Of a stretch of 29,678 bases of DNA, positions 1,819-25,742 are shown piece after piece; the first letter of the stretch is position 1, and every line of letters begins with the position of its first letter. Position numbers and translations under genes: made by a program. Source of the stretch: a virus; IMG/VR virus record IMGVR_UViG_3300024999_000297, positions 1 through 29,678 of that record. One strand, written 5' to 3'. The notes beneath the pieces are model-generated. The model saw nothing but the letters and a program-made list of their open reading frames with translations, was not told the origin of the DNA and searched no databases.

Positions 1819-2001
1819 TTACCTTTTCTTCTTGGCCGCTTTCTCAACTTCCGCTTCTTTCTCTTCTTCGATAAACTCTTTCATTTTTGCGTTCACCCAT
1901 GGAGAAACTCGAATTCCCTTCTTGCCCGCATAATCACAAAATTCCTCGTAGATACCCGGTTCAATTGTGATGTTTAAAGATTTCCTCACCAACATAACCA
2001 C
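1819..2001 (-). CDS. Ribbon-helix-helix (CopG/MetJ-like) DNA-binding protein, possible antitoxin
   Basis: This small protein carries a ribbon-helix-helix pattern. A short strand (RKSLNITIEPG) is followed by helix IYEEFCDYAGKKG, the turn IRVSP and helix WVNAKMKEFIEEE. It ends with a charged EK-rich tail and KKKR. RHH proteins dimerise and place the paired N-terminal strands in the DNA major groove, and many are autoregulating antitoxins. The first start is GTG at 2001. ATG 1995 or GTG 1989 are equally possible because a GGGGGGTGG ribosome binding site lies close upstream. An extended -10 promoter lies just upstream, and a perfect 16-bp palindrome at 2055-2070 could be its operator instead of, or as well as, a recombination site. 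It heads a two-gene unit with the 130-aa protein. Confidence 0.75.
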   Translation of the reverse strand: MVMLVRKSLNITIEPGIYEEFCDYAGKKGIRVSPWVNAKMKEFIEEEKEAEVEKAAKKKR

Positions 2002-2015
2002 CCCCCAATAAGGTG

Positions 2016-2026
2016 ATTATATACCA
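2016..2026 (-). promoter_or_regulatory. Extended -10 promoter of the RHH cassette
   Basis: On the minus strand the sequence reads TGGTATATAAT, an extended -10 element, 15-25 bases before the RHH start codons. No good -35 is present at 17 bp, as is common for extended -10 promoters. Confidence 0.5.
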
Positions 2027-2054
2027 AATAGTGGGGCTTTGGTTGCTTGCAAAT

Positions 2055-2070
2055 AGTTATGCGCATAACT
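2055..2070. repeat. Right bracket repeat: perfect palindrome AGTTATGCGCATAACT
   Basis: A perfect 16-bp palindrome upstream of the RHH promoter. Its inner 14 bp match the left bracket repeat at 1397-1411 with one base inserted there. It can be read as the second recombination site of the cassette or as an RHH operator. Confidence 0.65.
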
Positions 2071-2097
2071 GCGCACTAATGAGGATAATGAGTCAAA
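2069..2097. repeat. Imperfect copy of the 1312-1330 repeat
   Basis: CTGCGCACTAATGAG followed by GATAATGAGTCAAA aligns with CTGCGCATAATGCGTCAAA at 1312-1330. The extra bases here look like a short tandem duplication of TAATGAG. It directly follows the palindrome and precedes the end of the fibre gene. Confidence 0.45.
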
Positions 2098-2103
2098 TAC
2101 GAC

Positions 2104-4035
2104 TTAAACCTCAAACACACCTAAGCACCAAATGTTGCCGTTAGCATTGGTATAATTATCTGGACTTACTGTAAGACTACTACTATTTCTCTCAAAATAT
2201 ATTTTCATGTCCGTGATTGGTGATGGTACCAATGCCCCAACATAATCTCTGAAATATACTTCCGTAGTTGTCGAACCAAGTGAACCAAGATTAGTCACCA
2301 ATACACCTGTTCTGCTGGAAACGGAACCTTTTATACCTGTAATAGCACTATGGGTTATAGTTAACACACCATTGCTAAACGATACTCCGCTTACACCTTC
2401 TGCACTAGATGTTACCCAGTCAGTACCATTGTAATAAATATAGCCTCCCATTGACTTATTTTGATATAGATTAATTAAAGCCGTTTCAACACCAACGCTA
2501 CCACCCATGAACATGAAATCAGATGCCATTGTTTCGTCTGGACATGCAACAAAGGAAACAACTTTTAAAGCAGTAAAATTGTAGGTAATTGTTATTTTGG
2601 AATTATCGTTTGCTACACTTGCCACGTTTATGGCATCATGATCACCTGTTATTTGTTTCCAGCCTGTTCCGTCATTACGAATTACACACGCAACAACTTT
2701 GATAGTTTTACCATCTTCACCTACAACATTTTGAAATATTCCGTCAATAGGTGGATAAATAGAACTTTTACTTATCAAATATTTATCAACTGGACTATAG
2801 GTTCTACGCACTGACAATATTGAGATTAAAGTAGCATCAAATAACAAGACCATATACGCTACACTTGCTGGCACGGTATATTCGGGGGAATATGAGTCTA
2901 TAGCTGGTATAGCACTAACAAATGTAAAATTTGAATCAAGGTATACCCCTCTCGCACTTAATGCAGAGGGCAAAGTTGTTCCTGGCAACCAGTTTTCCAC
3001 TAGATATTTTTCACCTGGAACAACAGGTAATGGTCCAAGTGAGTGATATGACGCACTACTGATTATTGCTGCTGATCCATTAATATACATATAGTCTAGT
3101 ATTATTGATGAATCAATTCTTGATCTTATATTTTCAACAAATGGGCTGTCACTACGTTTAATTGCATTTGCGTTTAACCATACATCCTCAAGTGTATTAC
3201 CGATATGCACCTTTGTAGCATCTTGAAAAATTAAGATATTATCAATTTCTGTCATTAGAAAATTTAGTTTCAAAGTTACGACATTAGCGGGAGCTTTTAG
3301 TGTGTATTTAGTTTTTGCTGTGTTAAGACCATAATTAGTTCCAAGGAACAAATTGGATATATATACGCCACCGCCATCGAACCATGCTCCCTCTTGATTA
3401 GTACCGATATTATTTAATACAAATATAAATTCTCCTTGTGTGACGGTCAGTGAAATATAACCATACAACGCATTAACTGTTTCTACCCCAGTTGTTTTAT
3501 TAATATATTTACCTGTCACCGCATCTGCTTTCACAAAAAGATTGTACGAGGTCAAAGTATTAGGAATTTCAGAATTTGTCTTTATTGGGGTGATGCTTCC
3601 GTCCGCAGGAACAGTTCCTTGATAGACCCATCCTTGCACCCATGCAGAGTCATTCCATTTATATACATAAGTATCTTCAAGATTTAATTTTACATATGCA
3701 TCACCAGTGGGATAAGCAGCTTGGATGGCTGTTAAATTTGCAAAGTCTTCAGGTGTACCATCAGCCATCAATGCGATTTGAGCATCTACGTAAGTCGTCG
3801 GTGCTTTTAGTGCAAGTGCTGTCGTATTATCTGCCAACTGCGCAGCAAGGGCAGCGTTTAATTGTTTACCTTGTTTTGCAGATAACACCTTATCGGCATC
3901 ATCTGTTGTCAAATTATCTACAATATCTGTCTTGGCAACCTTTGCTGCTAAGGGACCTTCCAAATAATTATCAATTTCCGCTTTGGGAATTGCATCTACG
4001 ATGATCGGAGTTGGGGTTAAGTCACTATATCCCAT
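2104..4035 (-). CDS. Large tail fibre / receptor-binding-type protein
   Basis: A 643-aa protein, last in the tail module in transcription order. Near the N-terminus (about residues 38-65) it carries the pattern VDNLTTDDADKVLSAKQG with a following alanine-rich helix, a motif shared by many phage tail fibres and thought to form a trimeric coiled coil. The rest is rich in G, S, T, N and V with short beta-strand patterns. It contains carbohydrate-binding-like stretches such as VVPGEKYLVENW, repeated T-G-K-Y-type blocks and a beta-rich C-terminus. There is no enzymatic motif. ATG 4035 is preceded by AGGAGG. A receptor-binding role is inferred from position (distal end of the tail operon) and composition. 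The gene abuts the recombinase/RHH segment at its 3' end. Confidence 0.75.
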   Translation of the reverse strand: MGYSDLTPTPIIVDAIPKAEIDNYLEGPLAAKVAKTDIVDNLTTDDADKVLSAKQGKQLNAALAAQLADNTTALALKAPTTYVDAQIALMADGTPEDFANLTAIQAAYPTGDAYVKLNLEDTYVYKWNDSAWVQGWVYQGTVPADGSITPIKTNSEIPNTLTSYNLFVKADAVTGKYINKTTGVETVNALYGYISLTVTQGEFIFVLNNIGTNQEGAWFDGGGVYISNLFLGTNYGLNTAKTKYTLKAPANVVTLKLNFLMTEIDNILIFQDATKVHIGNTLEDVWLNANAIKRSDSPFVENIRSRIDSSIILDYMYINGSAAIISSASYHSLGPLPVVPGEKYLVENWLPGTTLPSALSARGVYLDSNFTFVSAIPAIDSYSPEYTVPASVAYMVLLFDATLISILSVRRTYSPVDKYLISKSSIYPPIDGIFQNVVGEDGKTIKVVACVIRNDGTGWKQITGDHDAINVASVANDNSKITITYNFTALKVVSFVACPDETMASDFMFMGGSVGVETALINLYQNKSMGGYIYYNGTDWVTSSAEGVSGVSFSNGVLTITHSAITGIKGSVSSRTGVLVTNLGSLGSTTTEVYFRDYVGALVPSPITDMKIYFERNSSSLTVSPDNYTNANGNIWCLGVFEV

Positions 4036-4052
4036 TTAATTCAAACCTCCTC

Positions 4053-4727
4053 TTATTCATATCTTGTGACGATGTAAGTTATTGCCCCGGTTATGGTTAC
4101 GATAGGGCTTGGTGTACCACCCACAATTGTAGTAATCACCTTATTGGGTGGGACGGTTATACTAATGCCGTTTACAACAAAAACACCTATGTTACTCATA
4201 TCTGTGTTATAAATTTCAATGCAATATATATTTTCAAAAAACGTCAATACTCCTAACACTGCATCGGCATCAGTAAGTTGTTCAACTAAAGTTTGGTTTG
4301 GTAAGCCGCCAACTATTGTAGCGTTAACGCTTCCTATGAGATTGCTTCCTGATGGAATGGATGGTAATGCTGTAATTCCTACTGTACCTATTTGGTTTGT
4401 CCCGGCAGGAAGTTGGTCAACTATTTTCTTTATGCCTGACGTATCATTAATAGCTGTTAGTAACGACTCTAACCCATCTACATACGATATCAACACATCC
4501 TGCTTCGCTTCGGTAGATGGTGCCGCTATCAACTTCGCTAAAATAGCCGCCAAGGTTGTCTGTGTGGCAAAATCCTTCGCTATCAAAACATCTTGCTTTG
4601 CGCTTGTCGACGCTCCACTAGGTAGTGAGCTATCAACCACTGATGACTCAACCTTTATCTTAGAGTTTCCTTCGTTAAATATTTTCTGCCATATATCCCC
4701 AATGCTCCACCATTTTGAATTAGCCAA
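4053..4727 (-). CDS. Structural tail protein with AKQD and PAGxNxIGxV repeats
   Basis: A 224-aa protein beginning MANSKWWSIGDIWQKIF (TTG 4727, with GAGGA seven bases upstream). It contains two STxAKQDVLI blocks (around residues 41 and 72) joined by a helical linker. These are followed by two copies of the pattern L/I-P-A/S-G-x-N-x-I-G-x-V (around 104 and 122), and then a beta-rich C-terminal domain ending ITGAITYIVTRYE. These blocks recur in phage virion surface proteins, and the PAGxNxIGxV motif also occurs in the capsid-associated protein at 19171-19836. There is no enzymatic signature. The position between two fibre-like genes supports a tail or baseplate accessory role. Confidence 0.65.
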   Translation of the reverse strand: MANSKWWSIGDIWQKIFNEGNSKIKVESSVVDSSLPSGASTSAKQDVLIAKDFATQTTLAAILAKLIAAPSTEAKQDVLISYVDGLESLLTAINDTSGIKKIVDQLPAGTNQIGTVGITALPSIPSGSNLIGSVNATIVGGLPNQTLVEQLTDADAVLGVLTFFENIYCIEIYNTDMSNIGVFVVNGISITVPPNKVITTIVGGTPSPIVTITGAITYIVTRYE

Positions 4728-4744
4728 CTTTTATTCCTCTTTTC

Positions 4745-5125
4745 CTAGCTAACATAAAGCGATACTGATGCTTTTAAGATTTGTCCGTCACCAGCAGTTA
4801 CCGTAAAGTTAACAAAGTACGTTCCATGATCATCTGGAACAGTAACCAATGCCGATACTATATCCCCTGAAACGGTCGCCGCCTGTTCGGTTAAAATCGT
4901 ATAACCAAACGCATTCATAATGTTCCATGTTGCAGAAGCATTTCCCGGAAGAGAGATATTCGATTCGATTGATACTGTAAGGACTTCACCAACTTTAGCC
5001 AGCAAGATATCACCCGCCTTGAAATAATAAATCCTTGGTAATTCTTTAAACCAAGGATTGAAAAATGGTGCTATTTGATTGTCGAAATATCCATTTAGGA
5101 TTAGATAAGATTGTGGAGCGTTCAT
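4745..5125 (-). CDS. Small beta-rich tail protein, Ig-like domain
   Basis: A 126-aa protein whose C-terminal 85 residues look like one Ig-like or BppU-like domain. It has alternating strands with EVLTVSIESNISLPG, a conserved tryptophan (ATWNIMNA), and the late strands HGTYFVNFTVTAGDG and KASVSLYVS. The N-terminal 40 residues (NGYFDNQIAPFFNPWFKELP) may be an anchoring segment. The start ATG 5125 lies just after the upstream gene's stop and is preceded by TTAGGTGG. Such domains commonly decorate phage tails and bind surfaces weakly. The function here is inferred from context. Confidence 0.6.
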   Translation of the reverse strand: MNAPQSYLILNGYFDNQIAPFFNPWFKELPRIYYFKAGDILLAKVGEVLTVSIESNISLPGNASATWNIMNAFGYTILTEQAATVSGDIVSALVTVPDDHGTYFVNFTVTAGDGQILKASVSLYVS

Positions 5126-5127
5126 AC

Positions 5128-5427
5128 TTAACCACCTAAAATCTGACCGCTAATATTTTGAGCGAAACCAGTGATTTGGATAACTTTTAATTCTACTATC
5201 TGACCAGATGTTACAATGAAATCCTTATCAGCTAAATAGGCGGTCGGATATTCACTTGATGTCCTCGACTCATATTTTTTAGTTCCATTTACATAAAGCC
5301 GGACAATAGCCGGAATATCGCATGATGCATTGTATCCAATTACATGCCTTGCCCCATCACTTGTCCATGAGCAAACCGTACCTTCGACACCCGTATTGAC
5401 TGACACGTCAAATCCACTCGCAAGCAT
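5128..5427 (-). CDS. Small hypothetical tail-module protein
   Basis: A 99-aa protein with no recognised family. The sequence is beta-rich (VSVNTGVEGTVCSWTSDGARHVIGYNA, IVRLYVNGTKKYESRT) and ends in a glycine-rich tail (NISGQILGG). The start ATG 5427 has AAAGGA upstream, and the stop is two bases from the next gene's ATG, so the two are translated from one message. It is probably a small structural or baseplate accessory protein, inferred only from its position. Confidence 0.6.
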   Translation of the reverse strand: MLASGFDVSVNTGVEGTVCSWTSDGARHVIGYNASCDIPAIVRLYVNGTKKYESRTSSEYPTAYLADKDFIVTSGQIVELKVIQITGFAQNISGQILGG

Positions 5428-5441
5428 AAGATCATTCCTTT

Positions 5442-6281
5442 CTATTTGTGTACATAATTAAGGTCTACCCATGTCTTAAGTAAGACTACTTGGTCATCCG
5501 TATAAGTATTAGAGGTCGTAACTGCACTATTTGCCGTAGAGATTGCTGTATACGAATTCGTTAGCGCATCATTAGCTATTGCAGTGAGCTCACTTATTTC
5601 CGTAGAAAAGTAATCTTTCTCAGCATATTCTAAAGCATTTATTAACGCTGCCCTAGAATCATAAAAGGAGATAAATGCAGTATTTAGGTCGTTACGGATA
5701 ATTGACGATGTTTGAGTTAAATCAGTTAAACTTGGCGCAAGATAATTATTGAGGTTGTTATAAGCAACAACATAACTGTCATAGGCAGACGTAACAGGGA
5801 TTGATGAATACAAAGTCACTCGAACGTCAATGTTAACCACTTTTTCAGAAACGATTAAATCCAATCTTGGCTTCAGGATCTTCACCTTTTCTTCACCCGT
5901 AACCTTATCTCTATTCGCTATATCTGAAAGGATAGAAAGTGTCGTAGTAGCGTCTGCCTGAGCATTATTCGCCAAGTTGATTGCGCTAGTAGCGTTTGTA
6001 TCCATAACAAACTTTGATGATACTCCCCGGTCTACGTATTTTAAGGATTGATTTCCGTTAGGGTACTTAACCCAAACATTATTGCCTACCGACAATGTTA
6101 GGCCCCTTGGATTATTGCAGGGAACGGCAACATTCGAGTCGTTGATATACACAGTTAAGGGTGAAACACTTGCCACTATGGCGTGATCTTCAAGCAATAA
6201 GTTTGTTTTTAGTAATCCAGAAAATAGACTCCTAATACGTCGATCAATTATTGACAATATTTCCCTCGCTACGTCCTGCAC
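5442..6281 (-). CDS. Baseplate/tail-tip protein with OB-like N-terminus and coiled-coil spike region
   Basis: A 279-aa protein. Residues 30-90 (VSPLTVYINDSNVAVPCNNPRGLTLSVGNNVWVKYP as a pattern of strands) resemble the small OB-like domain of phage baseplate and spike proteins. Residues 118-240 contain NRDKVTGEEKVKILKPRLD and two similar helical blocks. This is the all-helical module found in J-like and Tal tail-tip proteins (the DNKLTPxEK type), followed by alanine/serine/threonine coiled coil to the end. The start is GTG 6281, with GAGGTAATAAT overlapping the end of the upstream gene. It probably sits between the tail hub and the fibres. There is no catalytic motif. Confidence 0.6.
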   Translation of the reverse strand: MQDVAREILSIIDRRIRSLFSGLLKTNLLLEDHAIVASVSPLTVYINDSNVAVPCNNPRGLTLSVGNNVWVKYPNGNQSLKYVDRGVSSKFVMDTNATSAINLANNAQADATTTLSILSDIANRDKVTGEEKVKILKPRLDLIVSEKVVNIDVRVTLYSSIPVTSAYDSYVVAYNNLNNYLAPSLTDLTQTSSIIRNDLNTAFISFYDSRAALINALEYAEKDYFSTEISELTAIANDALTNSYTAISTANSAVTTSNTYTDDQVVLLKTWVDLNYVHK

Positions 6282-7383: not shown

Positions 7384-9710
7384 GGCAACGCCTCCACTTC
7401 AAGAAATTCGAAGGTGCAATTCTTATACTTACTTACCCGCTCTTCCTTCTCAGTAAGATTAAAAATGTCAACAACCATGATTTCTCCATTCGACTTTTTC
7501 ATGGTTAGAACTGTCTTGATTTCTCCATTTACAAGGTTCTCAAAGACTCTATACGCTTCTAATGGTGTTTGTCTATCTATTGGTACTATAGTAGCGCTTA
7601 CTGTCCCCTTACGCGCCTTCTTACCTCCGTAGACAACTATCGAATAAGGACTATAAAGAGGTTCTAGTTCGGCTCTTCTCCTATCAAGCGATGCATTGTC
7701 AAACTCTAACCCAGCGACAAGTTGCACCGATTCACCTGTCGATGGATTGACAATATAAAGGTTTGTGAATTTAGCTGCCGACATTACAACGTCAGACATA
7801 CTTTTTGAACCAGTTACAGATACGGCCTCTATAGAATAGTAGTACGGAATACCGTTAGCAACCTGATAATCCATCAATTCCTGTTGGGTAATGTTGTCCT
7901 TATACAGAACAGTAGACAGGCTTTCTCCCTTCCATATTCGATAATGATCAATATCCGGTTGTCCACTCGATTGATCTTGGGTTGTCCATGCCAATAGTAA
8001 TGAGTCCTTCACTCTATTCACGACTAGAATTGATCTTGGAGGGAGTGAGAAATCGGTAGTGAATACCCTAATTTCTTCGTCGCTTACGATGTCGTAGATA
8101 TTCCATACATAGACTCCAACCTTATAAGTTGTGCCTGTGATTAGGGTATAGTTCAGTAATTTTGACCTTGCGTTAACATCTAATATTTTTCCTGTATCAA
8201 AAAGTAGGTAGTCGGAACTGTCGTAAAGTTTTACCTGATACGCCTTTTGTGATTTTCCTGACGGATCACCATAATTCCATTCGACTGTAAGATTCTGAAG
8301 GCCATAAATATCGTTGTCTTCAACTGGTACTGTGATCGTTACGGTTGGCGAAGCAAAAACATAGACCGTAGCATAACCGCTTTCGGGGCTTGCGATATCC
8401 AATGTGTCCCAAACAGTGACCTTCCATAGATATTGTGAACCGTTAGTTAATACATTCGGAGCCATACCGTATTCTGAATACGGACTTAATGACTTGCCTG
8501 TATCGAAGACGATGCTCCCGGTCGTAACAGCAACAACCTGAAGCCTAAAAGCGTACTGATTATTCCCTGAATCTGAATAGTAAGTCCAGTTAAATAATGA
8601 GGAATAGGCAGAGTCGAAATTATCGACCCTTAAATTAGTTGGGGCACTAGGGAATGCGTCGAAAACATAAACATTTGATTTAACTCCGGCACTTGATTCA
8701 TTCCAGACGTAATAAATCTTATTGGCAATCATCAGGGTTTTTACCAACGTACTGTTGTATGTTATCCCTATTTCGACGTTCGTTGGTTCTCCCCATACTC
8801 CATCCATAATCACTATGCGACGAATTAGATATTTTGTGGTACTTACGACTGTATCTATACCTTCAAAGTAAAGGTAAATTGCATTTCCTGTTATTTCTGC
8901 GCTTGGTTTTTGTTGATTTTTAGTATTAGGATTATAGGAACCATGACTTATATCGCTTCCTGTTGTTAGGTTGTAAGATTGCCACTGAATAGAGGTATTA
9001 CTCCCGGTATAAATGTTCGAGCAGAAGAGTGTAGCTATTCCTGATGAGCTAATTACTGCCGTGAAGTTGTCGAGCAAAGAAGATGATAAGACATAGTTCA
9101 TTAAATCAAAATTGCCATTATAACCCCATTTAATACCATGGCTAGAGAAGGAATATTCATCAAACATAATAAAAGGTATGCCGTTAAATATCAATATAAA
9201 CGGATTTTGGTAACTTCCGGTCGATGTGTCTGGTGCAGTGGTAAATTGAACACCAGACCACGTTATTCCATCCGACGAATAACTATATCTAATATTGTAA
9301 GTGTCTGGGTAGCTGTCCGTCTTACACGAACAGGCGACGTATACAGTTCCATTATCATCGACCGCCGCGCTTAATCCTTTTTTTAGATCAGCAACAGCCT
9401 CGACAATTACTTTGTATGCATTAATATTTATGTTCGCCTGGACTGTCGCGTCGAAGGAGTTGACGTATACGTTGTCACCATACGTATAAAACACATAGCA
9501 TATATTCCCGACGCTAACGATGGCCGGGGAAGAATCAACGGAAGATATGCTACATAGTGGAGTCCATGAAGCATTATCGTCTTGACTCACATAAACTTGG
9601 AGGGTAGAGTTATTCAGGGCTATTGCTACGAGCCAACCATTAGCAAGTTTAGTTATCTTTTTACCATTACCTGTTAAGTCGTAATTACTAGCTATTACGC
9701 TGTTGGACAC
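7374..9710 (-). CDS. Tail protein: sialidase-like propeller, FN3-like repeats, Dit-like C-terminus
   Basis: A 778-aa protein immediately after the tape measure gene. Residues 1-350 look like a beta-propeller with sialidase/BNR-like blades (VYVSQDDNASWTPL, RYSYSSDGITWSGVQF). Residues 355-650 hold about three fibronectin-III-like domains (PSAPTNLRV..., SPTVTITVP..., LPPRSILVVNRVKDSLLLAWTT), each with the expected tryptophan and tyrosine. The last 125 residues (from about 655: IVNPSTGESVQLV, then TVSATIVPIDRQTPLEAYRVFE) look like a conserved phage tail domain of the distal-tail kind. The normal Dit slot is thus filled by a much larger protein carrying probable carbohydrate-binding domains. GTG 9710 follows GGGGGGTGATC. 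It could cap the tail tube and make first contact with cell wall sugars, which is inferred. Confidence 0.65.
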   Translation of the reverse strand: MSNSVIASNYDLTGNGKKITKLANGWLVAIALNNSTLQVYVSQDDNASWTPLCSISSVDSSPAIVSVGNICYVFYTYGDNVYVNSFDATVQANININAYKVIVEAVADLKKGLSAAVDDNGTVYVACSCKTDSYPDTYNIRYSYSSDGITWSGVQFTTAPDTSTGSYQNPFILIFNGIPFIMFDEYSFSSHGIKWGYNGNFDLMNYVLSSSLLDNFTAVISSSGIATLFCSNIYTGSNTSIQWQSYNLTTGSDISHGSYNPNTKNQQKPSAEITGNAIYLYFEGIDTVVSTTKYLIRRIVIMDGVWGEPTNVEIGITYNSTLVKTLMIANKIYYVWNESSAGVKSNVYVFDAFPSAPTNLRVDNFDSAYSSLFNWTYYSDSGNNQYAFRLQVVAVTTGSIVFDTGKSLSPYSEYGMAPNVLTNGSQYLWKVTVWDTLDIASPESGYATVYVFASPTVTITVPVEDNDIYGLQNLTVEWNYGDPSGKSQKAYQVKLYDSSDYLLFDTGKILDVNARSKLLNYTLITGTTYKVGVYVWNIYDIVSDEEIRVFTTDFSLPPRSILVVNRVKDSLLLAWTTQDQSSGQPDIDHYRIWKGESLSTVLYKDNITQQELMDYQVANGIPYYYSIEAVSVTGSKSMSDVVMSAAKFTNLYIVNPSTGESVQLVAGLEFDNASLDRRRAELEPLYSPYSIVVYGGKKARKGTVSATIVPIDRQTPLEAYRVFENLVNGEIKTVLTMKKSNGEIMVVDIFNLTEKEERVSKYKNCTFEFLEVEALPWI

Positions 9711-17885: not shown

Positions 17886-18131
17886 CTATTTGATGTAACC
17901 ATGCTTCTTTAGCACTTCAACTTGATCAGGGCTAACGTTGGCAGCCCCATCTAAAAATATGATTGACTTACCACCAATAAAGATGGTGTGTTGTCCGACG
18001 AATTCAGCGGGTCCAAGGTTGAGAGTCACTTCGACGTTCTCAACCTTGCCAACTACTTCGGAGCCTAGTTCATCGATTATTTCTCCCACTGGCTCAGTAA
18101 CTTCAGTGACTACTTCCTTTTTCTTCTCCAT
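17886..18131 (-). CDS. Small acidic head-module protein of unknown function
   Basis: A protein of about 81 aa from ATG 18131. An alternative in-frame ATG at 18152 would add MGDGDAL. I prefer 18131 because ATG overlaps the capsid gene's stop (TAATG), a normal coupling arrangement. The first 50 residues are very acidic (EVVTEVTEPVGEIIDELGSEVVGKVENV). The rest contains GPAEFVGQHTIFIGGKSIIFLDGAA and a short helical end (SPDQVEVLKKHGYIK). The last part resembles small phage proteins found after capsid genes. The role is unknown. Confidence 0.65.
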   Translation of the reverse strand: MEKKKEVVTEVTEPVGEIIDELGSEVVGKVENVEVTLNLGPAEFVGQHTIFIGGKSIIFLDGAANVSPDQVEVLKKHGYIK

Positions 18132-19096
18132 TAGCGCGTCACCGTCACCCATGCGTGATGGCTTGCAGCATACTTTGCAACAAGCCCCTCGAACAGAACA
18201 CCGCGATACTTAGTCGCTAAATCTTGGATCAATCCGAGTTGGAAGATACGCGGTTTTGGAGTGGTTACATAGTGCATCTCCACCATATTTTCAGTAAGGA
18301 TAACGGCAGGGTAGTCATTCAGAGTGTTATCCCCGCTATTGACCACATACGGCAGAAAAGGATCCGGAACAATCGGAATAATACCGGCAGCCGTTCGAAT
18401 TGCAGGAACCGAAATACCTGGGATTACTTCAGTTTCTTTGGCGAGAACATCCTTAAACATTTGAGGATACGTCATAACCTCTTGCTCCATGAAGTCGAGG
18501 AGCAAAGGATTAACATAAATGGCCGTTGGCCGAACAATGAGCGTGGTATTAGCACACATAGCAGCGATTTTGGTGCGCAGGGATGCGATGATGCTTTCAT
18601 CAGTTGCTACGCTTGCGGTATTGGTAATTTGGGTTTTTAAACCAACAAACTCAATCGTAGTAGGAGTGGTCAGACTTGTGTCAGAACCATTCCAGATATT
18701 TTTGTCGCGAGCAGTCAGCATGGCGCTAATCATGTCTTGAATGTCATGAGCCACCAAGGATGCGAAGATGTTTTGTTGGGCCTGAACTTCGATGTCGAGC
18801 ATCCCGAAGTCAACGGAACCAGTGATGGCCTTGATCATTAAGCTACCTTCTCCGCGATTAGCGTTATAGGGAGTGTAGGCCAAGGTGTGGGCATCGGAGA
18901 ATTGGGCTGACCCAATAGCGTTTTGTTGAACGTAACGACTAGGATTACCGGTTGCGGGCTTAGGGTTGATGCGCTGACCTAATACCCCGCCTTTGCGGGT
19001 AAGATCAACAATTTCAGGATCGTACTTGTCTACAATAACGAAGCCATTTCCGAAAGACGCGGCGGCTTCCATATCTACGAATCCAGCATTGAACAA
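18131..19096 (-). CDS. Major capsid protein, HK97-like fold
   Basis: A 321-aa protein between the protease/decoration genes and the neck genes. Its sequence shows the expected mix. After a short N-terminal arm (FGNGFVIVDKYDPEIVDLTRKGGVL), a beta region with LMIKAITGSVDFGMLDIEVQAQQNIF is followed by a long helix with VAHDIQDMISAMLTARDKNIWNG (spine-helix-like). Next is the axial-domain region TLIVRPTAIYVNPLLLDFME and a P-domain region (AVILTENMVEMHYVTTPKPRIFQLG). The start TTG 19096 follows GGAAGTG. Subunits would be cleaved by the adjacent protease and assemble into the icosahedral head. Confidence 0.82.
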   Translation of the reverse strand: MFNAGFVDMEAAASFGNGFVIVDKYDPEIVDLTRKGGVLGQRINPKPATGNPSRYVQQNAIGSAQFSDAHTLAYTPYNANRGEGSLMIKAITGSVDFGMLDIEVQAQQNIFASLVAHDIQDMISAMLTARDKNIWNGSDTSLTTPTTIEFVGLKTQITNTASVATDESIIASLRTKIAAMCANTTLIVRPTAIYVNPLLLDFMEQEVMTYPQMFKDVLAKETEVIPGISVPAIRTAAGIIPIVPDPFLPYVVNSGDNTLNDYPAVILTENMVEMHYVTTPKPRIFQLGLIQDLATKYRGVLFEGLVAKYAASHHAWVTVTR

Positions 19097-19880: not shown

Positions 19881-20930
19881 TTATTCACTCCGAGCCTGAA
19901 GCATCTCAGCCATAATCAAGGCAGCAATTTTATCCACCGGTTGACCTTCAGAATTATGAATGGCCGCTTCGAGGTCTTTACCAGTTACGTCACCATAACG
20001 AGCAAGTGGGGTAGTTTTGCGAACCGGAGCAACAAGAGGCTTATTTGCCGCTTCAAGTTCTGCCTTAACAATGGTTGTGATTGAAGCAGAAATTTCTTCA
20101 AGCTTAATTCCTTCTTTAGGTACAGTCTCAAGTGCAGCAGAGAGGGTTGTTACCTTGTCCTCTACTTTAGCATCGACAGCGACAACCTTCTCTTCGAGAG
20201 TAGTGAACTTTGCATCAAGACCTACTACGTTTGCGGAAAGTGTAGCGGTAGATGTTGATAATGCGGTTAATCCTTCTTGCATAGCCTTCATAGCGGCCAA
20301 CAGTTCAATCAATTGTTCTTCCATTTTGGCTTTCAACTCCTTCGATAAATTCGCTGCAAGTGATGTGCCGTTATAGGCAGCCAACATCTTGCGCAATATT
20401 GTTGCACCGGTAAATACTAGAGAGGCAACCACAGCAACAGGTATCCCTTCGTAATTCCCTTCGGTAAGGACAGTTTGGGTTGATTCCATCGACATTCCCA
20501 ATTCTGCTTGGTGCGTCTTGATTAAAGCCGCTTCTTCAGGGAAATCCTTGTCGTAAATGAAACCGGAAACTCTTAGTTCGTTTCCGTCAAGCCAAGCGTA
20601 TTCAATAACCCCAATTTTGTGAAGCTTGTCGTGACCATCCATAGTAGTCTTGAAGTTTACTCCCATGTTTCGTAAGGAGTCCAAGGCCCCTTCCGCTACG
20701 CCTGAGGGCAATAAAATAGGCATACCTTCAAATTCAAGAGGTAAGCCATGTGGTGGTCCGCTTGATGGTTGATCTACAAGAAGTAGTGTCCCATCGAAGG
20801 GCATGTGATTTGGGGCATAGTTATCTTTTCTTACTTCAAGCATACCGCACGCCAGGTTGATGGGAAGAAGATTTGAGGCCATAAGATTGACGGTTTTAAA
20901 TGGTTTTTGCTTACGTTTCGTTTGTCTCAC
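19881..20930 (-). CDS. Prohead protease fused to scaffold
   Basis: A 349-aa protein with two parts. Residues 1-185 look like an HK97/S78-type serine protease. The catalytic histidine is probably H100 (DGHDKLHKIGVI) and the serine S147 (ELGMSMES), followed by the typical FTGATILRK strand-turn. Residues 190-290 are alanine/leucine-rich coiled coil (ALSTSTATLSANVVGLDAKFTT as heptads), the scaffold part, and the end (VAPVRKTTPLARYG) is a linker and core-binding tail. It helps shape the prohead, then cleaves the scaffold and capsid. The GTG start 20930 lies immediately against GAGGAG, so ATG 20882 (MASNLLP) is possible. Confidence 0.8.
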   Translation of the reverse strand: MRQTKRKQKPFKTVNLMASNLLPINLACGMLEVRKDNYAPNHMPFDGTLLLVDQPSSGPPHGLPLEFEGMPILLPSGVAEGALDSLRNMGVNFKTTMDGHDKLHKIGVIEYAWLDGNELRVSGFIYDKDFPEEAALIKTHQAELGMSMESTQTVLTEGNYEGIPVAVVASLVFTGATILRKMLAAYNGTSLAANLSKELKAKMEEQLIELLAAMKAMQEGLTALSTSTATLSANVVGLDAKFTTLEEKVVAVDAKVEDKVTTLSAALETVPKEGIKLEEISASITTIVKAELEAANKPLVAPVRKTTPLARYGDVTGKDLEAAIHNSEGQPVDKIAALIMAEMLQARSE

Positions 20931-20942
20931 CTCCTCAAGCTA

Positions 20943-21176
20943 TTAATTGCATGTAATGTGTTGCTTAAGAATCATCTTGTTTTTGTATGTCGCCTCAAAG
21001 ACGAAGAGACGAAAATCCAATTTACTTTTCTTTAACTCAAAAAGTAAACCGAATTGTGCCGCATCTGCCATAATTTGTTTGGCCTTGTCTATGTTGACAT
21101 CGGATGGGATTTGAAAACCAAACTCTGTTAGGACTAAACGGGTTAGTTTTTCAACTTGCTGATATAGAGTTGGCAT
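20943..21176 (-). CDS. Small hypothetical protein between protease and Acb2-like gene
   Basis: A 77-aa protein, ATG 21176 preceded by TAGGTG. It has an amphipathic helix (LYQQVEKLTRLVLTEFGF), a second helix (NIDKAKQIMADAAQFGLLFEL) and a short strand-rich end (LDFRLFVFEATYKNKMILKQHI). I recognise no family. It is probably co-transcribed with the Acb2-like gene, the two being separated by nine bases. Confidence 0.55.
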   Translation of the reverse strand: MPTLYQQVEKLTRLVLTEFGFQIPSDVNIDKAKQIMADAAQFGLLFELKKSKLDFRLFVFEATYKNKMILKQHITCN

Positions 21177-21185
21177 TTAATTCAC

Positions 21186-21389
21186 CTACCCATTTCTGGC
21201 AATAGAAGCGTTTGCCCACATTACGGCTTCTTCTATTTTGGTTAAGGAAAGCGATTGCTCCCTTGATGCTGGACACTCCGACTGAACCATCTCTGCAAAG
21301 TTCCTCCCCATCTCTCTGATTTCCTCATACCTTGTAATTTGATCCCCTTTTGGTGCGCTATAGGTAAACCTTTTAGTTAAATCGTCCAC
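21186..21389 (-). CDS. acb2: Acb2/Tad1-hairpin family protein (DUF7681-like), anti-CBASS sponge
   Basis: A 67-aa protein beginning MDDLTKRFTYSAPKGDQITRY and ending with the EEAVMWANASIARN pattern. The combination RF-x-Y-x-x-PKGDQ-x-x-RY, then a helix with SREQSLSLTKIEEAVMWANA, is the signature I know for the small all-helical Acb2 family of phages (T4 Vs.4 and Pseudomonas PaMx33 relatives). These assemble into hexamers that bind cyclic di- and trinucleotides and so block CBASS signalling. Tad1 proteins have a related hairpin. The protein is single-domain and full length, with GTG 21389 preceded by AGGGAGGA. Binding here is inferred from family resemblance. The gene sits in the head operon between protease and portal, so it would be expressed late, unless another promoter exists. 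Confidence 0.82.
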   Translation of the reverse strand: MDDLTKRFTYSAPKGDQITRYEEIREMGRNFAEMVQSECPASREQSLSLTKIEEAVMWANASIARNG

Positions 21390-21401
21390 TTGACATCCTC
21401 C

Positions 21402-21545
21402 CTACTTTAGGCAATCCAATTGCATCATGAGTAACATAAATTTTCCTAATGCAGCTTCAGTTTTTTCAGCATCCTCACTTTCTAGTGCATCAACCACTTC
21501 ACCGCAAACATCTCTAATTTTCTTGAATACTTCTAATCCGTCCAT
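21402..21545 (-). CDS. Small hypothetical phage protein (47 aa)
   Basis: The protein begins at ATG 21545 (MDGLEVFKKIRDVCGEV), which follows GGGGGAGG, and ends with KFMLLMMQLDCLK. The same frame is open upstream into the portal gene, but that part is unlikely to be real. It is helical and acidic, with no recognised family. It lies 10 bases after the portal gene and 12 bases before the Acb2-like gene, clearly in one operon. Confidence 0.65.
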   Translation of the reverse strand: MDGLEVFKKIRDVCGEVVDALESEDAEKTEAALGKFMLLMMQLDCLK

Positions 21546-21555
21546 GGGCCTCCCC

Positions 21556-22932
21556 CTAATTCTTTGTAACAACACTATCTGGATTCTGTAGCCTATTTTG
21601 ATCACCAGTTTGTTCTTTCCCAATAGTATGACCCAACTTAGCCATCATCTGTGGATAGGTCATGTCGCCAAACTCGCCCTCATCCAAGGGCTTACCCAGA
21701 TCAGCTAAAATTTGATTCTTCGTCAACACGCCGAGCATCCCATATTTGTAATGGGTGTTGCTCATGATCTCCTGAGCCTTGACGGACGGATTGAGAATGA
21801 ACTTGAACTCCACTGAATCTAACCCCATTCCTAGTTCTCCAATAATCTCAAGGTTTATATGCTCGGCAAGAAGTTTAGCAAGAGGCTTAATCGCCGCGTC
21901 CATGTCGTTGCTATCTTCTGATTCTGCGGTTGAACGATTGGAGCCAGACTGGATACCTAAGCGCCTGGGAGAAACGTCGTAAATGACCGCGATTAATATA
22001 ATTAGGAAATTCTTCCACCCTATGAATAGACCTTGGTCATCTGCTGCCGATATATCAAAGGCGGTTGCGCTATCAAGCCCACCAATAACAGGAGTTCTGC
22101 CGCTCCCTGCGATCATTGTGCGGATATAGGCCTCTACTTGTTTGACTAGATCAGGATCGGCGGAAGGCCCAAGGTTAATCATTTTCTTGGCTACTGCATT
22201 ACCAGCAGTTTTTCCGGCATAAGCCATGCTTTTTTCAAAGTAGTCAATGATTTTGTAAGCTACTTCAAGGGGTGATATACCGTAAGGTGAATTGGTTCTT
22301 GGGGATGCTTTTATATAACATAATTCAGAATCAAGCAGATCGACGAACTGACCTGAATTGCCACCATAACCTGTGTTTTGAGCATAGCGCGGTTCATTCG
22401 GATCTCCTGAATATTCGGGGTACAACTCAATGGATGCGCCATCTACTGCCCATAGATACATCGGACGCTCCGGATCTCCAGACCTAGCAGATTCAATTGC
22501 TCCTGCATCAAGTACCAAGATATCTTCTACAACCATTTCGATGAGTGTTCTGAAGGTATCACTGTTATTAGGGCGCCTGAGGACGTTGTTACAGATTCGC
22601 AGTTGCCGTTCAACTTCAGGTGTTTTTTCAACGCCATCCTTTGGTACTACGATCCAATCCAAGGAGGATACCTGGCGCTTGATCACATTTATTGCGCGTC
22701 GAGGAATTGGGGAGTGGCTGAGTTGACGCAATGCACGCAGCGTAACTTTGGGAGTTGATATTTTTGATTGAACTGCACCTATCCCGTAACCATTGAAGAA
22801 AGGGTAGACTTGAGTTTGCTGTGAGGGCGTGTTTGGTTTGCGTCCTGCATCAATATCAATTTTCTCTGATTCTACAGGATCCTTGATTCGCTTAAATGAA
22901 AATTCTCTGCCAAAGATTTTCGTTGACTTCAC
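21556..22932 (-). CDS. Portal protein
   Basis: A 458-aa protein of the HK97/SPP1-type portal family. Recognisable parts are SPIPRRAINVIKRQVSSLDWIVVPK near residues 75-100, the FRTLIEMVVEDILVLDAGAIES region, then the conserved YGISPLEVAYKIIDYFEKSMAYAG and GLFIGWKNFLIILIAVIYDVSPRRLGI around 200-340. The C-terminal helices include SNTHYKYGMLGVLTKNQI with the typical LGKPLDEGEFGD. Twelve copies form the DNA-entry ring to which the terminase and neck bind. The ATG is preceded by AGGGGAGG. It follows the large terminase gene by nine bases, the standard order. Confidence 0.88.
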   Translation of the reverse strand: MKSTKIFGREFSFKRIKDPVESEKIDIDAGRKPNTPSQQTQVYPFFNGYGIGAVQSKISTPKVTLRALRQLSHSPIPRRAINVIKRQVSSLDWIVVPKDGVEKTPEVERQLRICNNVLRRPNNSDTFRTLIEMVVEDILVLDAGAIESARSGDPERPMYLWAVDGASIELYPEYSGDPNEPRYAQNTGYGGNSGQFVDLLDSELCYIKASPRTNSPYGISPLEVAYKIIDYFEKSMAYAGKTAGNAVAKKMINLGPSADPDLVKQVEAYIRTMIAGSGRTPVIGGLDSATAFDISAADDQGLFIGWKNFLIILIAVIYDVSPRRLGIQSGSNRSTAESEDSNDMDAAIKPLAKLLAEHINLEIIGELGMGLDSVEFKFILNPSVKAQEIMSNTHYKYGMLGVLTKNQILADLGKPLDEGEFGDMTYPQMMAKLGHTIGKEQTGDQNRLQNPDSVVTKN

Positions 22933-22941
22933 CTCCCCTAA

Positions 22942-24300
22942 CTAAAAATCTGCAGAAAAAAAGGAACCTTTTCCATAGTTCCGTTTAATCTCTGGTTCAA
23001 ATAAACTTAAGCTAAGGGCCCACACAGTATCATCGTGATGGCCGTGTTCATGTTTGTATGTGACATTATTACTTTCTGTGACGTTTCTTTGAATACCGTG
23101 TAATTGTGCCCGTAACAATTTGCTATCTGGTATTTCAATCTCTTCTTTTTCCATGAGCATCTTGAGATTGTGAATCATTTTTTCCTTATTTGCATTGGTG
23201 AAGGAAATCCCCTCACACCTTGAACCAAACTCTTTTTGGAGAGGCTCTATTAATACTCCGCCTAAACCTGTTTCATCAATTCTTAGCTTTGAAGCGTTGA
23301 ACCGATTGACCATGTCTATTAAAAAACTTATTTGATAACCGTATTTTTTCTTGGTCAATATTTCTTCAGCAATTACTCTCTTTTTGCCACTCGGAAAATG
23401 TTCAACTGCGTAAAATACAGACTGGTCAATCTTCTTCGCGAAGTCAGCACCAATGGTAATTCTGTTTTGTCCAACATATCCTTTAGAATTTACTAAGTCA
23501 CCATTCACAACACTTGTGATTAGGTCATAAGTGAAGAACGCTGTCGCTTCGTCAATAAACTCGCAACAGAACTCTTGGCGGAATTCCTCATCTGTAAGAT
23601 TGTCTCGCCACATTTCAATATCCGGTACCAGGTCTGGACACTGATCCCACATCACTACGAATTTCTTCCATTGCTTCTCAATCGGGGTACGATCTGCGTA
23701 TCCTTCTTTTTGGTCAATGTTCCATAGGCGGTAAAATTCGTTCTTTTTGCCCATCGGGGTGGATAGAACTGTGATACGATTCCCACCGCGCATTGAAGGC
23801 ATTAGAGCTGTCCAGATTTTCTTGTCTTTCGGCTGAAAGGCAAACTCATCAAGGATGATATTGCCATTAAAGCCGCGCACACTAGATTCCGACTGTGGTA
23901 CTGACTCAGCATTACACCCATTCTTTAGCCGAATATGGGTTTCTTTGTCTTTGACAAGTTGTGGCTGGAGTTGCCTTGGAAGAGTGTCTATTCCATTTTT
24001 GATATGCTCAAGAAGTGTAATCGCCTGACGCTCAGATGCGCTAACCATCATGGTAAAAGGCACAAGTCCAAAATACAGTTCATGAAAAACACGGCCAGTA
24101 ACACAAACCGTACTAAAACCAGTTTGTCGGGATTTATTAGTTATTTCCAGTCGTCTTGGTCCCTCTTTGTACGGATAATCTAGGAATTCTTTTTGATAAT
24201 CGTACAGTTTAGGGGCTTTTCCATTGGGTAAAGTCCAGAATGCTTCAAGGAATTCAGAGGGTTTGTCAGCGTAATTGAGTAGTTGGGTGGATTTCATCAT
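22942..24300 (-). CDS. terL: Terminase large subunit (ATPase plus nuclease)
   Basis: The protein has about 452 residues from ATG 24300, which overlaps the stop of the upstream small gene (ATGATGA). The ATPase half holds the Walker-A-like KSRQTGFS at residues 56-63, Walker B IILDE at 148-152 and the coupling motif STP at 180-182. The nuclease half has an RNase H arrangement of acidic residues: D286 (GADF), D342 (RIDETGLGG) and D423/424 (HDDTVWALS). The motor packages DNA and makes the cut at the packaging site. The upstream TerS-like protein should recognise that site. An upstream in-frame GTG at 24309 is possible but is not near a good ribosome binding site. Confidence 0.92.
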   Translation of the reverse strand: MMKSTQLLNYADKPSEFLEAFWTLPNGKAPKLYDYQKEFLDYPYKEGPRRLEITNKSRQTGFSTVCVTGRVFHELYFGLVPFTMMVSASERQAITLLEHIKNGIDTLPRQLQPQLVKDKETHIRLKNGCNAESVPQSESSVRGFNGNIILDEFAFQPKDKKIWTALMPSMRGGNRITVLSTPMGKKNEFYRLWNIDQKEGYADRTPIEKQWKKFVVMWDQCPDLVPDIEMWRDNLTDEEFRQEFCCEFIDEATAFFTYDLITSVVNGDLVNSKGYVGQNRITIGADFAKKIDQSVFYAVEHFPSGKKRVIAEEILTKKKYGYQISFLIDMVNRFNASKLRIDETGLGGVLIEPLQKEFGSRCEGISFTNANKEKMIHNLKMLMEKEEIEIPDSKLLRAQLHGIQRNVTESNNVTYKHEHGHHDDTVWALSLSLFEPEIKRNYGKGSFFSADF

Positions 24301-24464
24301 GACAAGCACTCATCTTTTTCGTCCCACAATGTTTCTTTGCATTGCGAACATTGGATTACGCTCCAGCAGTTATCTCCCTCATCCGTGTAAACATCATAGA
24401 TAAGATCAGCGTGACCACAATATGGGCAATGGTCATCGTATTCAGGATCGAATTCCATTTTCAT
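24297..24464 (-). CDS. Small four-cysteine zinc-ribbon protein (55 aa)
   Basis: ATG 24464 gives 55 residues: an acidic start, then CPYCGHADL, a middle region, CSQCKETLWDEKDECLS and stop TGA at 24297-24299. The two C-x-x-C knuckles are 26 residues apart, as in a zinc ribbon. The stop overlaps the ATG of the terminase gene, so the two are coupled. The family is unknown. It may bind DNA or assist the terminase, as small Zn-binding proteins often precede terL, but that is inferred. Confidence 0.75.
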   Translation of the reverse strand: MKMEFDPEYDDHCPYCGHADLIYDVYTDEGDNCWSVIQCSQCKETLWDEKDECLS

Positions 24465-25277: not shown

Positions 25278-25742
25278 TTAACGTCCCCTCTCTCCCCAAT
25301 GCATCCGCAGATATTCCCTGATCCCATTCTTCGGATTGTAGGCAGGATATAGCTTTCTGAACTCAACTTCAGCTTCTTCAAACGAATCAGGTAGCTCATT
25401 TCGCATACTCAGCATCGCTACCGATGGTCCACGGCTCTCCCCCTGGTTGCAATGCACGAGTACCCTTAATCCATTAATCAGGGACCCACGAATGAAGTCG
25501 AGTGCTGCATTAACCATTGACTCGGAGAAGTATATCGGGTTATCAACATCAACCATGTTCAAGGCTATTTCGTTACCTCGGACGGCGTAGAGGTATTCGG
25601 GGTGGTCCTTGGGTAGGGCGCGTCCAGTGTAGCCAACGAAGGCCCTGTGGTGTGGGTCTTTGTTGCAATGACAGATGGCACCGTTGAAGTTAAGGCAGTC
25701 GGCCTGGTTTCCGACGAATAGGTTTGGCTTTACTTCGATCAT
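25278..25742 (-). CDS. Dual-specificity protein phosphatase
   Basis: A 154-aa protein with the Cys-based phosphatase signature. The active-site loop is HCNQGESRGPS (H97, C98, R104), with the expected preceding strand (GLRVLVHC) and the following helix SVAMLSMRNEL. A candidate general acid is D65 or D67 in NMVDVDNP. The motif HC-x-x-G-x-S-R matches dual-specificity phosphatases. It would remove phosphate from Tyr or Ser/Thr, or from another phosphate ester. It is expressed from the phage operon between the terS-like and terL genes, and AGGAGG lies about 10 bases before ATG 25742. A regulatory role towards a host or phage target is likely, but no substrate can be named. Confidence 0.85.
   Translation of the reverse strand: MIEVKPNLFVGNQADCLNFNGAICHCNKDPHHRAFVGYTGRALPKDHPEYLYAVRGNEIALNMVDVDNPIYFSESMVNAALDFIRGSLINGLRVLVHCNQGESRGPSVAMLSMRNELPDSFEEAEVEFRKLYPAYNPKNGIREYLRMHWGERGR

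Follow-up and report, generated by a model that had tools for sequence, protein, structure and literature searches.

The window, by which we mean the whole 29,678-nt stretch of viral DNA analyzed here, contains a small acb2-like gene (nt. 21186–21389) encoding a protein of 67 aa from a GTG start codon at nt. 21389, preceded by a ribosome-binding site (agggagg, within nt. 21390–21404 of the same strand) ~8 nt ahead of the start. The earlier note on this DNA had given no strand for the ORF; its coding strand is the minus strand, and it is the only acb2 copy in the 29.7-kb virus record.

The gene lies in a head module that reads, in minus-strand order, terminase large subunit (terL), portal protein, p47, acb2, p77, protease/scaffold, a 221-aa ORF, and capsid protein, with successive gaps of 9, 10, 12, 9, 12, 44, and 74 nt. 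The 9–12 nt gaps up to the protease gene point to a single operon and are too short to hold an intergenic promoter ahead of the protease. The terminase large subunit (nt. 22942–24309) was assigned via PF03237/PF17289 and phrog_5909 (4e-42), and the 458-aa portal protein (nt. 21556–22932) via PF04860 (Phage_portal, 2.2e-32) and phrog_2662. The 349-aa ORF at nt. 19881–20930 showed no clear sequence match and was assigned with Foldseek as a prohead protease with a C-terminal coiled-coil scaffold, of the assemblin type. Its model has a low mean pLDDT (57), with a better protease domain and a helical C-terminal part; the first PDB match was gp21 of phage T4 (5jbl, prob 1.00, E = 4.8e-4), with herpesvirus assemblins and proteases close behind, and residues H100, S147, and E149 are invariant in 17 homologues. 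The Pfam match of the portal and the fold match of the protease bear out the earlier placement of acb2 between these two genes. The probable major capsid protein (nt. 18131–19096) had no significant Pfam or PHROG family match of its own, and was assigned by position and by 39–40% identity to the ORF at the corresponding position in L057, one of two contigs of a diverged phage described below.

Two small minus-strand ORFs flank acb2, both with good ribosome-binding sites: p47 (nt. 21402–21545; strong site, gggggagg) on the portal side, and p77 (nt. 20943–21176; taggtg) on the protease side. A weak PHROG match (E = 0.008) was found for p47, which had no homologue in phage records, and p77 had no Pfam, PHROG, or phage-record match. 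The two had been proposed as possible partners of acb2; however, neither turned up next to any of the 80 viral relatives searched, in the phage collection, or in the corresponding slot of related phages, and in the diverged phage acb2 occupies this position with neither p47 nor p77 present. We conclude that p47 and p77 are not obligate partners of acb2. A separate promoter for acb2, also raised previously, finds no backing in the tight operon spacing or in a sigma-70 promoter scan of the 19.8–25.3 kb region, which returned 4 sites over both strands (11.8 expected), with a sole, weak minus-strand candidate inside terL (nt. 23093–23065). No Rfam elements were found in the window.

The 67-aa protein is a further member of the already known Acb2 family, as judged by its profile match to PF24729 (Acb2_Tad1_hairpin), which spans the entire profile (positions 1–58 of 58) at 70.4 bits (E = 1.5e-19; cut-off of 27 bits). 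The experimentally verified Acb2 of phage T4 (Vs.4), used as a positive control, scored 71.4 bits on the same profile. PHROG 1454 (phrog_1454) likewise matched (E = 1.1e-21), while the PADLOC and NCBIfam searches returned no match to the protein. Both sequence motifs on which the assignment had originally been made, RFTYSAPKGDQITRY and SREQSLSLTKIEEAVMWANASIARN, are present in the ORF; these had been attributed to Acb2/DUF7681, which we take to be the same family as PF24729. Against a profile built from its relatives, the protein scored 118 bits, a value inflated by the inclusion of the protein itself in that profile, compared to 16.9 bits for the top of 20,000 composition-preserving shuffles. 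Invariance of the VMWANASI peptide among the IMG/VR relatives is in part a selection effect, as the search patterns themselves included this peptide.

Identity between the 67-aa protein and T4 Acb2 is only ~17%, and an eight-sequence alignment including T4 Acb2 has just four invariant columns (Y10, I24, T50, and M57 in window numbering). Two of these correspond to residues tied to ligand binding in T4, Y8 (Y10) and T68 (T50). The Y8A substitution in T4 Acb2 disrupts dinucleotide binding (PMC12657218, PMC12657230), and a T68M change in the Bas35 protein reduces ligand binding (PMC12657230). A basic residue, R25, is invariant in 106 sequences and stands where T4 Acb2 has K23 and the Pseudomonas Acb2 (p26) has K26, at an identical spacing of 15 residues from the tyrosine in all three proteins. 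We assume that K26 of p26 contacts dinucleotides and that its R67 contacts trinucleotides. The window counterpart of the latter is R43, seven residues ahead of the conserved threonine, as are R67 in p26 and the equivalent arginine in Tad1, whereas T4 has an aspartate there. Overall, Y11, K26, R67, and T74 of p26 (8h2j, 8ixz) correspond to Y10, R25, R43, and T50 of the window protein with the same spacings, the K26 position being an arginine in the window clade; p26 differs in its length (~92 aa) and longer loop. T4 Acb2 (7uq2) is similarly longer (88 aa), with a longer inter-helix loop, and has F82 where the window protein has A64.

One position near the putative ligand site sets the window protein apart. 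Residue 11, adjoining Y10, is a serine found in no other of the 106 sequences, 100 of which have histidine and the others tyrosine, arginine, or lysine; T4 and Pseudomonas Acb2 both have basic residues at this position. Serine in place of histidine or a basic residue suggests that the ligand range or affinity of the window protein may differ from that of its relatives. The singular S11 could also be read as a sign that the gene is a decayed or neutral passenger, with ligand binding lost, particularly as Panoptes selects for the loss of Acb2 (PMC12657218), but the intact frame, the strong ribosome-binding site, and the retention of the invariant family residues make such decay quite improbable.

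Structure prediction agrees with the family assignment. The AlphaFold2 monomer model (pLDDT 92.6) comprises a short N-terminal helix (residues 4–7) and a two-helix hairpin (residues 17–38 and 43–66), matching the published topology of the Acb2 protomer, a short N-terminal helix and two antiparallel helices (PMC12043709). In a Foldseek search of the PDB (350,542 chains), T4 Acb2 (7uq2) ranked first, Tad1 second, and Pseudomonas Acb2 (8h2j) eighth; the 7uq2 match (prob 0.90, TMq 0.72) was not significant (E = 1), and we attribute the PDB E-values of 1 or more to the protein being a tiny hairpin of 67 residues. Significance was reached only in the BFVD, where the best 12 matches were all named Acb2/Tad1 hairpin proteins and are themselves predicted family members.

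The recurrence of Tad1 in these searches bears on another reading, in which the protein is a hairpin-only relative of Tad1 whose main ligand would be gcADPR or a cyclic trinucleotide rather than a CBASS dinucleotide, countering Thoeris, NucC-type CBASS, or type III CRISPR signalling. A single-sequence search of the PDB placed weak Tad1 matches (E = 0.047) before any Acb2, with "Acb2 homolog 43" (9ptq) also returned, and the window protein and Tad1 (7uav, 8kbe) have a hairpin motif in common (SRExxxxLTxxEEAxMWxN; in Tad1, at the C-terminus). The arginine seven residues ahead of the threonine, found in the window protein, Pseudomonas Acb2, and Tad1 and not in T4, fits this reading, as does the oddity of S11 so near a tyrosine linked to dinucleotide binding. 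Tad1, however, is a protein of 123–138 aa with an N-terminal antiparallel beta domain, which is missing from the window protein, whose model contains no strands; the residues of the T4 dinucleotide site, Y10 and T50, are kept; and with a profile of 32 relatives the nearest solved chain among the PDB sequences is the Acb2 homologue 9ptq (E = 4.8e-4). We therefore regard a Tad1-like role as a minority possibility and favor assignment as an Acb2-type sponge, for which the family score, the predicted fold, and the conserved ligand residues agree with the earlier proposal of such a sponge in the head operon; binding of cyclic nucleotides is predicted on these grounds.

Relatives of the protein are widespread, occurring in 299 phage records, at least 154 places in IMG/VR, and six plasmid records, together with 31 loci in GTDB genomes, which are for the most part Bacillota. 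The clade spans Bacillota prophages, actinobacteriophages, one cyanophage, and many uncultured phages, often with late genes, and its members in phage records are mostly annotated as hypothetical proteins. Among the nearest large genes flanking the relatives, the commonest recognized classes were portal protein, terminase large subunit, and head maturation protease/morphogenesis. Since neighbor profiles seeded mainly from the window genes proved too insensitive, these classes were taken from PHROG and Pfam tallies and broader profiles, and even so the neighbor counts are lower bounds. With profiles of low sensitivity, TerL or portal genes were found within 1 kb in 22 of 101 non-redundant loci, and their density was ~10–15% per kb from −5 to +2 kb, falling to 1–3% from +2 to +5 kb. 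Other relatives lie near lysis genes (Jace), tail genes (S-2L), or in the replication/regulation region (Paenibacillus larvae phage Sitara). T4 vs.4, unlike the window gene, lies away from the head operon, among small genes near tk, regB, and denV.

Several individual loci merit a mention. In the Gordonia phage ChisanaKitsune, gp20, annotated as a hypothetical protein, is 51.6% identical to the window protein and, like it, is encoded downstream of the portal gene (here directly), but is followed by an RNA ligase and an ADP-ribosyltransferase instead of the protease. The cyanophage S-2L (MW334946) has an Acb2-like frame (nt. 35214–35405; 48% identical), most of it without an annotated gene, ahead of an annotated tail assembly gene. 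Lysinibacillus boronitolerans L173 has two Acb2-like genes ~6 kb apart (nt. 1610–1834 and 7875–8195). In two cultured bacteria, Paucisalibacillus globulus (L176) and Viridibacillus arenosi (L189), acb2 lies next to TerL/portal. In locus L003, one very long ORF (nt. 1862–5992) with head-morphogenesis, portal, and protease-like matches and an intein-like insert ends directly ahead of the Acb2-like gene, and similar long ORFs occur in L027 and L029.

A search with the portal protein recovered 59 loci, 30 of which carry a closely related module with the same protease within 1 kb after the portal gene. In 28 of these 30 loci, which share the portal–protease–capsid module of the window, acb2 is absent. 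The space it would occupy is only a 29–43 nt gap in some, contains a small basic PRNRAERR peptide in many others, and elsewhere contains a pair of ORFs of 99 and 109 aa (L201), a 74-aa ORF with ferritin, or a 79-aa ORF (L233). The portal–protease junction is thus a variable cargo slot (loci L201, L202 with the ferritin-like protein, L206–L208, L212, L222–L225, and L233), and on the same count we reject acb2 as an ancestral gene of the head operon.

The remaining two loci, L203 and L204, are two contigs of one phage (contigs of L056 and L057; L056/L203 being IMGVR_UViG_3300025530_000016), where acb2 stands alone in the slot, in the order portal–acb2–protease–capsid seen in the window. The portal, protease, and capsid proteins of this phage are 43%, 30%, and 40% identical to those of the window, respectively. 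Over aligned columns, the Acb2 of this phage and the window protein share only 55% identity, and 16 other relatives are nearer to the latter in the tree. Sequences of 67 residues give weak trees, but this distance is a hint that acb2 may have been inserted independently in the two phages.

This variability also informs whether the protein might instead be a small head-morphogenesis factor, one that has kept the Acb2 hairpin and serves in portal or prohead assembly. The location of the gene between portal and protease, and the recurrence of head genes as neighbors across the clade, would suit such a role, but the same module does without acb2 in all but two loci, many having just the short gap, and relatives lie near lysis, tail, and replication/regulation genes as well. 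We consider a part in head assembly very improbable.

The phage is distant from those described, with no megablast match among phages, nearest TerL relatives at 22–30% identity, and nearest annotated phage portals at ~24%. Upstream are dUTPase, dCMP deaminase, dATP/dGTP diphosphohydrolase-like, HNH-like, and transcription-regulator-like proteins. A 154-aa protein encoded just upstream of the terminase module (nt. 25278–25742, minus strand) weakly resembles dual-specificity phosphatases (E = 4.6e-4), with a score that falls short of the Pfam cut-off. An integrase-like ORF on the plus strand (nt. 694–1245) makes it probable that the phage is temperate. At only 183 aa, and aligning to the C-terminal portion of the PHROG profile, this ORF is possibly partial or shortened by a frameshift.

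Taken together, we think it likely that the window gene encodes a minimal Acb2-family sponge which holds CBASS cyclic nucleotides, is made from the late head mRNA, and was gained via a variable slot. By analogy with the solved Acb2 structures, the protein would assemble as a hexamer, which would bind and hold the cyclic di- and/or trinucleotides of CBASS cyclases without cleaving them, and this sequestration would keep the CBASS effector inactive until lysis. The gene would have entered the slot at the portal–protease junction, as opposed to being ancestral to head assembly.

The earlier note had called the late placement curious for a factor that must act early. Such placement is common in the clade, and it would be expected if late phage products trigger CBASS. 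A staphylococcal CBASS cyclase is activated by an RNA from the terminase genes (cabRNA), and phages that escape it are altered in terS or the scaffold gene (PMC10686824); the prohead protease of phage BAS13 activates EcCdnD12 CBASS, according to the account of Richmond-Buccola 2024 given in PMC11312562; and in a Pseudomonas phage deleted for acb2, capsid mutations aid CBASS escape (PMC10419184). Thoeris, likewise, is triggered by the major head protein (PMC11312562). We infer the late transcription of the window acb2 purely from gene order. Translated from a polycistronic late mRNA of the head operon, on which acb2 precedes the prohead protease and capsid genes, the sponge would build up as the published triggers (terminase-gene RNA, prohead protease, and capsid) appear.

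Protection of the lysogen or of a second infecting phage had also been suggested. The former is less likely, as Acb2 is reported to act in prophage induction and not in lysogen maintenance (PMC12043709) and the operon is expected to stay off in a lysogen; during induction or co-infection, the protein may well be protective.

Work on Acb2 has so far centered on the proteins of T4 and Pseudomonas phages, and the genomic position seen in the present clade is recurrent and little discussed. A broader and more speculative proposal, to which we give limited credence, is that late operons repeatedly offer "just-in-time" counter-defense slots, at the portal–protease junction and comparable positions, where the sponge is co-translated with the CBASS/Thoeris triggers (terminase RNA, portal, prohead protease, and capsid) such that antidote and trigger are matched in both amount and time. 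Were this so, other small genes in these slots may be further anti-defense proteins. If the sponge is indeed made together with the CBASS triggers, the expectation that a counter-defense gene must be an early gene would fail for signal-based immunity, and the cargo slots of late operons would be places to seek new anti-defense genes.
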